From NCBI GenBank assembly GCA_947630135.1, contig CANRGH010000002.1:124001-188000 (forward strand): a DNA stretch of 64,000 bases. Reading direction: 5' to 3'. Shown piece after piece: positions 25,498 through 54,121 of the stretch; position 1 is the stretch's first letter, and each line of letters starts with the position of its first letter. The translations under genes were made by a program, and so were the position numbers. Below the pieces are notes generated by a model. The model worked only from the letters and a program-made list of their open reading frames with translations. It did not search any database and was not told the origin of the DNA. Source of the stretch: an uncultured Monoglobus sp. (lineage in GTDB: Bacteria > Bacillota > Clostridia > Monoglobales > Monoglobaceae).

Positions 25498-25513
25498 GGG
25501 CTTATTCTTTTTA
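25479..25513. terminator. Intrinsic terminator
   Basis: AAAGAATAAGCC-gctga-GGGCTTATTCTTTTT. Confidence 0.8.
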
Positions 25514-25765
25514 ATATTGATTGTATATCTGACCTCTGTTTCCTATGTCGATAACAAGAACGACATATCTGTCGCTTTCGACGGTGTAGAGAATTCTGTA
25601 ATCGCCGACCCTGAGACGAAACATATCCGTGCCTTTTAACTTTTTTATGTCGGTGCCGAAAGGCAGTTTATATATCGCCTTGTAGAGTCTGAGCCTTTGA
25701 GTTTTATCTTGCTTTTCGAGGAATTTCAAGGCCGCTTTTTCAAACTCAATTTTGTATGTCGGCAT
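25511..25765 (-). CDS. RelE/ParE-superfamily toxin
   Basis: MPTYKIEFEKAALKFLEKQDKTQRLRLYKAIYKLPFG...LKGTDMFRLRVGDYRILYTVESDRYVVLVIDIGNRGQIY. Confidence 0.9.
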   Translation of the reverse strand: MPTYKIEFEKAALKFLEKQDKTQRLRLYKAIYKLPFGTDIKKLKGTDMFRLRVGDYRILYTVESDRYVVLVIDIGNRGQIYNQY

Positions 25766-25997
25766 ATGTCAGTCCATCCTTTGCAAGTATTTTTTCAAAA
25801 GGCATTCTCGTGCCGTCATTGATTTTTTGCGCCTCGTCAATCATTTTCAGGTCCCATTCATCAGGTTCGGTTTCCTCATAAGCTGTATCATCCGCGTCCT
25901 CGTCGGCGGTGATTCCCTGAATATACGCGATAACATAGCCGAGCTTATAGGGCGGGACCGTGTCAAGCAGCTTGATCGCTTTTTCTTTTTCGGACAT
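25746..25997 (-). CDS. Cognate antitoxin of the RelE-like toxin
   Basis: Overlaps the toxin start. MSEKEKAIKLLDTVPPYKLGYVIAYIQG... with GGTGAC RBS; acidic C-terminal region. Confidence 0.75.
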   Translation of the reverse strand: MSEKEKAIKLLDTVPPYKLGYVIAYIQGITADEDADDTAYEETEPDEWDLKMIDEAQKINDGTRMPFEKILAKDGLTYADIQN

Positions 25998-26027
25998 ATC
26001 TGTCACCTCACAGTCTTTGTTTATGCC

Positions 26028-26056
26028 ATTATAACATATCCTGAGACGGAAATCAA
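26028..26056 (-). promoter_or_regulatory. Promoter of the RelE-type TA operon
   Basis: Minus strand TTGATT-N17-TATAAT. Confidence 0.65.
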
Positions 26057-26121
26057 GCGGAAATTTAAAGACCTTATTTGACATAATAGAAAAATTTCTT
26101 TAAAAAAGCTCTAAAAAACTG

Positions 26122-26246
26122 TTGACATAGGTTTTCTGTTATGTTAGAATATATTTGGTTGGAATTCGTTGGTTTATTTTTTATGTATCAAAATACTTAT
26201 CCGTTTGTTGGGCGGATAGGCTGTTTTGGTACTTTTTTGTTTTTTA
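26122..26246 (+). ncRNA. Candidate small RNA / terminated leader: promoter TTGACA-N17-TAGAAT plus 19-bp terminator stem
   Basis: TTGACA 26122-26127, TAGAAT 26145-26150. Stem GTATCAAAATACTTATCCG / CGGATAGG-c-TGTTTTGGTAC, then TTTTTTGTTTTTT. Confidence 0.55.
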
Positions 26247-26270
26247 GGGCAGGTATTATGTTAGGCTCTT

Positions 26271-26840
26271 CCGAGGGAGAGGCAATATAAAGGCTCCCCT
26301 TGGGGGGAGCTGGATTTCCGCCGTAAGGCGGAAAGACTGAGAGGGGTACCCTAATTACTATTCGCTAATCGCTAATCACTACGTTGTAGGGCGGCATGCC
26401 TACATGCCGCCGCGGGATGTTGAGGACGAATGTGGGTGGCCGGATGTGGGCATCCGGCCCTACGCCGTAAATAGACGGGTTTATTCCTAGTATCTAGTTA
26501 CTAATCTCTAGTTCCTACGTTAACCCCTCTCCGACGCCTCCGGCGCCACCTCTCCCGAGGGAGAGGCAATATAAAGGCTCCCCTTGGGGGGAGCTGGATT
26601 TCCGCCGTAAGGCGGAAAGACTGAGAGGGGTACCCTAATTACTATTCGCTAATCGCTAATCACTACGTTGTAGGGCGGCATGCCTACATGCCGCCGCGGG
26701 ATGTTGAGGACGAATGTGGGTGGCCGGATGTGGGCATCCGGCCCTACGCCGTAAATAGACGGGTTTATTCCTAGTATCTAGTTACTAATCTCTAGTTCCT
26801 ACGTTAACCCCTCACCGACGCCTTCGGCGCCACCTCTCCC
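26271..26840. repeat. Two-copy tandem duplication, period 284 bp, of intergenic repeat modules
   Basis: ccgagggagaggcaatataaaggctccccttgggggg...cctacgttaacccctc repeated from 26555 with very few substitutions. Confidence 0.9.
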
Positions 26841-26901
26841 TAGGGAGAGGCAAATAAGTAAAAAATAATTAAATATATAATAAAGAAAGAAGGAGTTTAA
26901 A

Positions 26902-28929
26902 ATGAAAACAAAGAGAAAAACAAAAATTTTATCGCTTATTTTGGCGATAACCGTGGTAGCAACAATGATTATGGCCGTGCCAATGGTTAGCTTGGCTAAT
27001 CATGCAGATACCGGCAATGTGTTAATTTGGGATTTTGCAGAATATTCAGTCGCAGGTGATGTTACCACAAACACACCCATTGATTACAATGGCTTAAGTA
27101 TTGTTGGCGGTAACAGTGGTGATACTTTAAAGAGTGATGGTTTTAGAGCAAACAAGCCATCCGGAGAAAATGCAGAGTATATTTCATATACGCCAACATA
27201 TGATGGAACTTTATTTGTTACTTTTGTTTCAACTAATAATGATGATGCAGCAAACAGATTCAGTTCTATCGGAACTGCTATTGATTATGAAAGTGAAATA
27301 GGTCAAAATGGAGTTCTTGACAGACAGGCGGCTTCCAAAGGAATCTTGAGCGCGAATTTAAAAGCCGGAACAAAATATTATGTTTGTACAACCGGTGGAG
27401 TGCGATATACAAGCGTGCAGTATAAATATAATAAAAATTCTTGGTATACTACCGGCGCAGTGACCGAAAACGATGTGCTTGTTGATACATACGCCCTCAA
27501 ATTAACCGCAATTATTGCCGGAAGCGCAGCAAAACAAACCACTGGAAATGTTTATAACAATGTGACATACACATCCTCAACAAATCTGAGAGGTAATTAT
27601 TCAGGTGGAGAATATGTTAAGGATACTGATAGTAAAGGTGCAGAAAAAGATGGTACTATATTAAAAATAGAGCCAAAGCTTGATGGTGAATTTTCGATAA
27701 TTTACAGACGCCAACCAAGTAGTAACAAATACGAAAAAAATGATAATAAGGATTTAATTTTAAATGATAGCTCAGGCGAGCGACAAACTGCCATAAGTTT
27801 TCTTCATGATGACATAAGTTCCTCAGTACCTGAATATTTGGCTGTATGCTCGATTTTTAAATTATCCGCCGGGGAGACTTATTATGCATATTGTCACGGA
27901 TCAACACTTGGACTGTATGAAATCTCATATACGCCCGAATGGGTTGCCAATGACGAGAATGGTACCGTTGAAAAAGATGTCGACGGAATTAAAGTTTCAT
28001 ATCCCGCCAATACGACCGGAAAAGGTTTCAGCTATGATTTGACCGATAAAATCAGCGGATTGGAAGGCAATTTATCCGAAAAGACCGATGGTATTCTGAA
28101 GGTTTCGTACGATTTGTATATTCCGCAGACGGAGAAGGCCACTGCCAATAATTTCTTTGTTGATCTGAGCGGTGATACAACTATAAATGGTTGGGGCGGC
28201 GGCAATGATAAAACATATGGCAGAGTTTCCGGATATGAACCATGGAGCGATATTAAAGCGGTTTACGGAAAAGGCAAGACAAATGATCCTGAAGGAATTA
28301 CAGTAAGCAACATGGGCGATATCCGTAAAGAGGGTGATTGGGCAAAGGTGGAATATGTCTATAATCTTAAAGAAAACACATTTAAAGTGACATATGACGG
28401 AACAGAGTCGGAGACCCTTACCGGAGAGGCTGTAAATAAAACGGACAAACTTTATTTGAACGCGCAGCCTCTTGATTCAATGGAAAATGGTGCGCAGTCC
28501 GAGAACGGAGTATATCTTAAATTCAGAAATATCAGCGCATCATACGAGGCAGCCGAGGCTCCAACTACAAAAGTTTCATTTGGAACACATGAGATCGATT
28601 CGGGATATTATAATGTCTCGGAAGTAAAGAAAGGCGTTATCAGATTTTTACAGGAGATTACCGGTGACGCGTCAGAAGTTAAGAGATTTGGATTTTATAT
28701 TGTGAACAGCAGTGGCGAAACGCTTCTTGCCGCTGTAAGCACTCCGAATGATCAAGATGAAATTGATGGTATTTATGCCGATCTTAAGAATATTGAAGAA
28801 AACGAAGGTAATAAAACCAATATGTTCTACATGAAAGCTTTTGTGGACTACGGAAACGGATTTCTTGATTACGGTAATGCATTCGGAGATAAGGTAAACT
28901 GGGAAAGAGAAGTAAATGAACCTAAATAG
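26902..28929 (+). CDS. Secreted multidomain protein of unknown function (beta-sandwich/CBM-like modules)
   Basis: Signal peptide MKTKRKTKILSLILAITVVATMIMAVPMVSLA; AAAGAAAGAAGGAG RBS; no recognised catalytic motif. Confidence 0.75.
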   Translation: MKTKRKTKILSLILAITVVATMIMAVPMVSLANHADTGNVLIWDFAEYSVAGDVTTNTPIDYNGLSIVGGNSGDTLKSDGFRANKPSGENAEYISYTPTYDGTLFVTFVSTNNDDAANRFSSIGTAIDYESEIGQNGVLDRQAASKGILSANLKAGTKYYVCTTGGVRYTSVQYKYNKNSWYTTGAVTENDVLVDTYALKLTAIIAGSAAKQTTGNVYNNVTYTSSTNLRGNYSGGEYVKDTDSKGAEKDGTILKIEPKLDGEFSIIYRRQPSSNKYEKNDNKDLILNDSSGERQTAISFLHDDISSSVPEYLAVCSIFKLSAGETYYAYCHGSTLGLYEISYTPEWVANDENGTVEKDVDGIKVSYPANTTGKGFSYDLTDKISGLEGNLSEKTDGILKVSYDLYIPQTEKATANNFFVDLSGDTTINGWGGGNDKTYGRVSGYEPWSDIKAVYGKGKTNDPEGITVSNMGDIRKEGDWAKVEYVYNLKENTFKVTYDGTESETLTGEAVNKTDKLYLNAQPLDSMENGAQSENGVYLKFRNISASYEAAEAPTTKVSFGTHEIDSGYYNVSEVKKGVIRFLQEITGDASEVKRFGFYIVNSSGETLLAAVSTPNDQDEIDGIYADLKNIEENEGNKTNMFYMKAFVDYGNGFLDYGNAFGDKVNWEREVNEPK

Positions 28930-29012
28930 CAGCTTAACTGTAAACATACCAAAGGGCGGCGGTGAAATAATTTAATTCTGTTTGCCGCCTGCCCATGACT
29001 TATCGCTTTGTT

Positions 29013-29155
29013 GTTTGCTCCGGCTTAGCGCGAGCTTGAATCCCTTCGCCGGGCGGCATCCCCCAACCAACATACGGGGAGCGCCACTTAATCAACGTAT
29101 CAACCAGGGCGCGCGCGGCCCGGAGTTTTACGGCTCGCGCTAATCCGGAGCAAAC
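29013..29155 (+). ncRNA. Candidate structured RNA / cis-regulatory element with 11+11 bp closing stem
   Basis: GTTTGCTCCGG-c-TTAGCGCGAGC (29013-29035) pairs with GCTCGCGCTAA-t-CCGGAGCAAAC (29133-29155). Inner helices CCGGGC/GCCCGG, CCCC/GGGG, GCGCC/GGCGC. Confidence 0.5.
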
Positions 29156-29192: not shown

Positions 29193-29360
29193 ATGAGAAA
29201 TATAAAGGAATACAAGGCGCCCACGGCGCAGATCACGGAATTTGAGTGCGCGGACGTTATAACAACGAGTTTAGAACTTAAGAAAAGACCCGATTCGGCA
29301 AAGAGTGATTATGTGTATGCCGGACACATTGACTGGAAGAGCAATTTCGGCCAGAATTAA
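29193..29360 (+). CDS. Small peptide (55 aa) of unknown function
   Basis: TTTTTGGAGGTGAC SD then ATG: MRNIKEYKAPTAQITEFECADVITTSLELKKRPDSAKSDYVYAGHIDWKSNFGQN; intrinsic terminator directly after. Confidence 0.65.
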   Translation: MRNIKEYKAPTAQITEFECADVITTSLELKKRPDSAKSDYVYAGHIDWKSNFGQN

Positions 29361-53743: not shown

Positions 53744-54081
53744 GACGAGGATAACTGATGATTGCGCGCGTAATGCGTGAGGAAAGTCCGAGCTCCATAG
53801 GGCAGAGCGCAAGCTAACGGCTTGTGGAGGCGACTCCAAGGATAGTGCAACAGAAATAAACCGCAGTTATTTTTAATAGCTGTAAGGGTGGAAAGGCGAG
53901 GCAAGAGCTCACCCGGCGGTCTGGCGACTTACCGCTGATGTAAACCCCGCTCGGAGCAACACCTGAATCGAAGATTAAGCCGGCCCGGCGCCTTCGGAGA
54001 TTGGTGGCTTGAGGCGCGCGGTGACGCGCGTCCCAGATAGATAATCATCTGATACAGAACTCGGCTTATGTTATGCTCGTC
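53744..54081 (+). ncRNA. rnpB: RNase P RNA
   Basis: GAGGAAAGTCCGAGCTCC, AAGGGTGGAAAGGCGAGGCAAGAGCTCACC, 3' ACAGAACTCGGCTTATG. P1 GACGAGgATAAC / GTTATgCTCGTC sets the ends. Confidence 0.95.
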
Positions 54082-54121
54082 ACAAAACAGGACAGCCCCA
54101 ATCGGGGCTGTTCTGTTTTGT
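54082..54121 (+). terminator. Intrinsic terminator of rnpB
   Basis: ACAAAACAGgACAGCCCC-aat-cGGGGCTGTtCTGTTTTGTT. Confidence 0.9.

Follow-up and report, generated by a model that had tools for sequence, protein, structure and literature searches.

A repeated structured RNA element of gut Monoglobus operons and its predicted antisense pairing with the operon leader

The window unit and its genes

The window analyzed here comprises 64,000 nucleotides of an uncultured Monoglobus sp. genome (assembly GCA_947630135.1, contig CANRGH010000002.1, positions 124,001 to 188,000, forward strand) and harbors a unit in which a leader element (LE), a gene for a secreted protein, a structured element of 143 nt (RE), and a gene for a small peptide follow one another on the plus strand (Table 1). 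The order in other units is LE, secreted protein, peptide, RE; in the window unit and its orthologues in the congeneric genomes G003, G007, and G006, RE separates the two genes. The LE promoter is the best promoter found between 25900 and 29420. No promoter lies directly before RE, and the plus strand from 28929 to 29013 contains neither a promoter nor an intrinsic terminator, in keeping with a preliminary description of this DNA that saw no clear terminator after the secreted protein gene. Window positions 26240-26860 and the intergenic DNA of all units carry dense short interspersed repeats (CCTCTCCCTAGGGAGAGG, TAATCACTATTCGCTAATCGCTAATCACTACGTT, and GTAGGGGCGGATATTATCCGCCC) in their spacers. 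Just upstream of LE, two small overlapping genes on the minus strand (25511-26084) resemble by eye a RelE/ParE-type toxin and its antitoxin, and a bacterial class A RNase P RNA is encoded at 53746-54083 on the plus strand (266.7 bits).

Table 1. Features of the window unit, in order along the plus strand
Feature	Positions	Strand	Description
LE promoter	26122..26150	+	TTGACA-17-TAGAAT with extended -10; near-consensus (11/12); conserved in units
LE 5' tail	26156..26176	+	UGGUUGGAAUUCGUUGGUUUA; complementary to RE P4 loop
LE hairpin H1, terminator type	26185..26238	+	GUAUCAAA-nnn-CUUAUCCG (UUUGUUGGG) CGGAUAGG-nnnn-UUUGGUAC, then UUUUUU; apical loop holds UGUUGG
Secreted protein gene	26902..28929	+	675 aa, signal peptide; paralogue in other units
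RE structured element	29013..29155	+	predicted antisense RNA module of the cassette; basis: fold z, covariance model, covariation
P1 closing stem, 5' strand	29013..29035	+	GTTTGCTCCGG-c-TTAGCGCGAGC
Motif 2	29037..29048	+	UUGAAUCCCUUC in the window, UGAAUCCCUUCUCC as consensus of the family; complementary in most units to the ribosome site of the leader ORF
P3 hairpin	29059..29080	+	loop CCAACA (29067-29072), complementary to UGUUGG in the LE hairpin loop (26206-26211)
P4 hairpin	29081..29112	+	loop with motif 1, AAUCAACG-UAU-CAACCA (29090-29106), complement of LE 5' tail
P1 closing stem, 3' strand	29133..29155	+	GCTCGCGCTAA-t-CCGGAGCAAAC
Small peptide gene	29193..29360	+	55 aa, MRNIKEYKAPTAQITEFECADVITTS...; conserved N-terminus, hypervariable middle

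The secreted proteins of these units carry a MRKRRILSLLLAVAVTATMLVAVPLTASA... signal; no confident Pfam or NCBIfam domain was found in the window protein, and an AlphaFold model from its single sequence is uninformative (pLDDT 38). The small peptide belongs to a family of 11 members in the source genome (G000), usually encoded just 3' of the secreted protein gene and sharing the motif MRxxKEYKAPxAxITEFECADVIT. A conserved N-terminal half (EYKAPxAxITEFECADVITxS) is followed by a hypervariable C-terminal half in the window gene and the 10 others, so that the family, which matched no family model, looks like a leader joined to a variable core.

The closing arms of RE pair over 11 + 11 bp around one mismatch and enclose 97 nt, and the minimum-free-energy fold contains each of the inner helices proposed in the preliminary description, CCGGGC/GCCCGG, (T)CCCC/GGGG(A), and GCGCC/GGCGC. 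The plus strand folds at -87.7 kcal/mol versus a shuffle mean of -63.1 kcal/mol (z = -5.2; none of 200 shuffles was as stable), and the minus strand is also well folded (-81.2 kcal/mol, z = -2.85). A tRNA-like appearance of GGGTTTGAATCCC was dropped, because this sequence is not conserved.

Copies, covariation, and strand of RE

RE is a previously undescribed repeated RNA element of a few related gut Monoglobus genomes. The source genome has a 70% match on another contig, and a search for relatives with the region flanking RE returned many copies of the small-peptide gene, around which diverged RE copies were seen. A covariance model (R1) built from ten RE copies retrieves 8 full copies in the source genome, among them the window copy at 136 bits, and 16 in its congeners (9 in G003, 5 in G007, and 2 in G006, scoring 87-147 bits); no copy was found in the other 34 genomes of the family that were searched. 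All eight source-genome copies lie 34-937 bp from a small-peptide family gene on the same strand, a linkage with a chance probability of about 1e-16 (taking 1% of the genome). Searches of Rfam, which the preliminary description had proposed, gave only chance matches at gathering and relaxed thresholds, with nothing over RE or LE that reached the gathering score, and plasmid and phage collections contained no match. A pattern scan of IMG/VR for the loop core returned at least 120 stretches, approximately the chance expectation for 14 fixed bases, and was not used.

The fold is maintained across these diverged copies. In an alignment of 24 copies, 92.4% of cells pair and 24 of the 32 pairs show double-sided changes; the covariation score is 0.458 versus 0.175 for shuffled alignments (0/500), and structures slid along the alignment reach at most 0.132 as their paired fraction falls from 92% to 32-43%. 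The P1 stem alone has changes on both sides in 18 of 23 pairs over 22 distinct copies. The compensatory changes that the preliminary description expected of a functional RNA are found, and RE is not single-copy; the many identical copies with target-site duplications that it regarded as the mark of a MITE are not what we see. The copies differ in sequence and accompany a single gene family, although they may be mobile.

One further argument of that description has to be given up. It held that G-U pairs in an outward extension of the closing stem favor RNA over a simple DNA inverted repeat; this extension is indeed present in the window copy, but the argument fails over the family, where P1 contains 6 G-U and 2 A-C versus 466 Watson-Crick cells and 17 of 22 copies fold with slightly greater stability on the minus strand. 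Because RE lacks a strand signal, palindrome correction could produce the P1 covariation: template-switch correction of palindromes, or a role as DNA, would also preserve the closing stem.

The leader and its complementarity to RE

In terms of sequence LE clearly reads as a sense-strand RNA: its stems contain 70 G-U versus 2 A-C cells over the family, and 22 of 22 copies are more stable on the plus strand (mean 14.7 kcal/mol). The tail takes the form UGGUUG..GUUGAUUA in the units. Downstream of LE, most units harbor a ribosome site (GAGAAGG) and a leader ORF of ~48 codons (about 43-50 aa) with a poly-G tract, mostly G9; this ORF is lost in the window unit. A tract of 7 or 10 G, or of 8 or 11 G in type-2 units, brings the stop codon of the ORF, a TAG, into the 5' arm of a terminator (ACGGCATAGGGAC...GTCCCTATGCCGT), the arm that receives the stop being ACGGCATAG in most units, and three units are already in frame for this stop. 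Leader ORFs of sister LEs (e.g., L039:5940-6100, plus strand, and L045:13440-13600, minus strand) usually miss the conserved frame downstream by one base. The ORF product is polar, without a hydrophobic stretch by inspection, and has no Pfam or NCBIfam match. The poly-G leader ORF of the sister units is a candidate phase-variable or slippage-controlled attenuator.

Three exposed segments of RE are complementary to LE, namely the P4 loop to the 5' tail, the P3 loop to the H1 loop, and a CCCUUCUC stretch to the ribosome site of the leader ORF. These contacts are collinear and antiparallel, with motif 2, P3, and P4 running 5' to 3' in RE opposite the ribosome site, H1 loop, and tail running 3' to 5' in LE. 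The first contact pairs the P4 loop with the first nucleotides of the LE transcript. Of the 17 genome-wide matches to the motif 1 complement, GGTTGN{3,10}GTTGATT, 16 fall in an LE or RE; a control pattern gave 1 match. The tail duplex of the window unit is worth -17.5 kcal/mol, with 17 of 500 shuffles as good, and other units do better, although the duplex is only modestly above shuffles in 3 of 8 units (17, 34, and 28 of 500). Type-2 units and unit G006_C53 use another second helix (CGCGAAAAUU with AUUUUUGCG, or 16 uninterrupted pairs, 3 of them G-U), and their tails pair at -23.6 and -25.5 kcal/mol (0/500 shuffles). A locus-wide scan for tail duplexes by energy alone was not discriminating. 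The spacing between the half-motifs varies from 4 to 11 nt.

In the second contact, the P3 loop and the LE hairpin loop are exactly complementary over 5-9 nt in every one of the 18 units compared, and the loops fall into four classes: UCAUGG/CCAUGA, UCUUGG/CCAAGA, UCAAGG/CCUUGA, and the UGUUGG/CCAACA class of the window. Over 14 distinct units the kissing-loop matches sum to 88, versus a mean of 63.7 and a maximum of 83 when partners are permuted (0/5000 permutations); type-2 units show no clear kissing loop. The stems around these covarying loops are unrelated between LE and RE, so descent from an inverted copy does not by itself explain the loop match. For the third contact, the duplex of UGAAUCCCUUCUCC with the ribosome site of the leader ORF is worth -13 to -17 kcal/mol versus about -7 kcal/mol for shuffles (0-8 of 300 as good) in the 10 units with CCUUCUC, and in nearly all type-1 units motif 2 fits this site better than either of the unit's two other ribosome sites, those of the secreted protein and the peptide. 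No such pairing holds in units of the L041/L081 type or in L084, and type-2 units show a weak one; motif 2 has drifted in the window unit, where the leader ORF is lost, so that only contacts 1 and 2 are left there.

Finally, three loci designated type 3 (L085:4790-5060, plus strand; L262:4820-5090, plus strand; and L267 around 5064, minus strand) harbor an RNA of ~250 nt that precedes a secreted protein gene and has a TTGACA/TATAAT promoter to itself. This RNA has a long closing stem, with CCCUUCUC in a hairpin loop, AAUCAACGnUAAUCAACCAACC unpaired, and AAUCAACG-UAAUCAACCAACC; the two shared motifs and their order suggest that it is related to RE.

An antisense reading of RE, its alternatives, and known systems

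On this comparative evidence, RE is probably an antisense RNA that is cotranscribed with the cassette and represses the cassette leader in cis and/or in trans within its class; the reading draws on the covariation, the linkage to the peptide gene, the compensatory loops, the exclusivity of the motif, the collinear contacts, the sense-strand character of LE, and the type 3 loci. Cotranscription with the neighboring genes, which the preliminary description had suggested, gains support as a prediction from the covariation over 24 copies and from three segments matching a leader RNA 2.9 kb upstream with compensatory loop changes. RE would be transcribed as part of the secreted-protein/peptide mRNA, intercistronic in the window unit and at the 3' end elsewhere. 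Its P3 loop would kiss the LE hairpin first, with pairing then zipping to the tail and the ribosome site, and the resulting complex would block the leader ORF and/or keep the LE terminator closed. Where the leader ORF stops inside the 5' arm of a second terminator, blocked translation would mean less read-through into the cassette, and the net effect would be negative feedback on the operon itself plus class-specific silencing of sister copies.

More tentatively, and with the balance somewhat against it, these operons may form a family of secreted-protein/peptide units in which each member's own mRNA carries an antisense RNA that silences phase-variable leaders of the same kissing-loop class, so that at least four distinct loop classes in the genus (all four in this genome) would provide an RNA-based choice of the members expressed. 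If so, antisense kissing RNA, a phase-variable leader peptide, and multicopy secreted proteins, each known separately, would be joined in one circuit of a gut commensal genus, and RE would exemplify an antisense regulator carried by, and traveling with, the operon under its control. The natural loop classes are ready-made compensatory mutants, which makes the pairing specificity directly testable.

LE and RE might alternatively be the two ends of a nonautonomous mobile unit of ~3-5 kb; they would then be complementary as diverged terminal inverted repeats, and the palindrome of RE would be a recognition structure for a recombinase or for single-stranded DNA. We consider this unlikely, although several observations would fit it. 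Homology between units ends just outside LE and RE, and units are absent at collinear congener sites in the pheT, spoIVA, and ispG neighborhoods, the pheT and spoIVA sites being empty in most congeners; the MreB-like and L,D-transpeptidase genes are adjacent in G007, while G000 has ~4 kb with a unit between them. A spoIVA-ABC transporter segment is inverted between G000 (C23; L043/L044) and G003 (C11; L069/L070), and its two breakpoints coincide with outer edges of cassette units, one at an LE and one at an RE. At what seems the same LE/RE site, species differ in the secreted protein and peptide enclosed, and the RE closing stem is almost purely Watson-Crick and free of strand bias. Given the presence and absence of units, the inversion, and the differing cargo, LE and RE may also serve as mobile-unit ends. 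However, no target-site duplication (by inspection) or transposase was found, the ends fit the promoter and terminator of a transcription unit equally well, the stems around the covarying loops lack the LE-RE complementarity of true inverted repeats, the half-motif spacing is variable, and selection for RNA sense on LE is clear. The intergenic DNA around the empty ispG and pheT sites retains no residual homology at which unit borders could be read.

The roles of the partners could also be reversed, with LE, released by termination as a short RNA of ~100 nt, binding RE as a target or sponge within the secreted-protein/peptide mRNA and controlling the stability of that mRNA or the translation of the peptide. 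It is LE that has the strong promoter and the hairpin followed by U6, RE lacks its own promoter in the window and is placed within the mRNA or at its end, and the same complementarity fits; we nevertheless judge this arrangement rather improbable, as motif 2 significantly prefers the leader ribosome site over those of the secreted protein and peptide in most units, and the LE terminator hairpin precedes the site of the third contact. Least probable, and very unlikely, is a purely structural hairpin, stabilizing or processing a 3'-UTR or intercistronic region, with its loops kept for a protein partner and no pairing to LE. Every unit does have a very stable RE hairpin with a conserved loop core (AAUCAACG..CAACC), but such a role predicts neither the compensatory LE/RE loop changes nor the genome-wide exclusivity of the motif complement. 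Other candidates appear less likely: integron attC sites have core ends of the form RYYYAAC/GTTRRRY, and RE has no such conserved ends; no reverse transcriptase, which a retron msr/msd would call for, was noticed beside the units; and the idea that hairpins just after RE are always its own terminators is weakened, as several are bidirectional and one (L039) looks like that of a neighbor.

Among known systems, antisense RE would work like RNA II in the RNA I/RNA II pair of par(pAD1), a type I toxin-antitoxin of the Fst/Ldr group in which the RNAs first kiss at a terminator loop and then pair where translation of a small ORF begins (PMC7472228). RE-LE pairing would likewise start at a terminator-hairpin loop and spread to the translation start of a small ORF, and complementarity of RE to both sites is computed, although not in all units. 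The par/Fst paralogues are, moreover, insulated from each other by sequence differences at their pairing sites (PMC7472228), as the RE/LE loop classes would be. In contrast to par(pAD1), RE and LE are 3-5 kb apart on the same strand rather than convergent across a shared terminator, with real genes between them; no promoter-like site directly precedes RE in the window, and in place of a small hydrophobic membrane toxin there is a polar leader ORF that is not known to be toxic and is lost in the window unit. RE/LE is not a member of Fst/par: its ORF is not hydrophobic and its promoters are not convergent. The leader ORF of most units has the layout of pil1 of Streptococcus gallolyticus, where a repeat tract sets by its length how long a leader peptide is, and translation of this peptide opens the terminator that follows (PMC3894217); here the poly-G tract of the LE ORF stands in place of GCAGA repeats and the stop would, in the right frame, lie inside a terminator arm. 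Attenuation at LE is proposed from this layout, the window copy lacks the ORF, and antisense RNA is no part of the pil1 mechanism as outlined in that source.

As dispersed palindromes of ~150 bp with a conserved fold and diverged sequence, RE copies resemble MITEs or REPINs, from which they differ in showing no target-site duplications and in occurring only beside one gene family, one per unit and in fixed orientation. Finally, the multicopy LhrC sRNAs of Listeria use CU-rich UCCC motifs to bind Shine-Dalgarno sequences (PMC4132741), and RE would similarly aim a C-rich unpaired motif at a Shine-Dalgarno site and exists in several genomic copies; unlike LhrC, it has no promoter directly before it in the window, is embedded in the very operon whose leader it matches, and displays copy-specific kissing loops.
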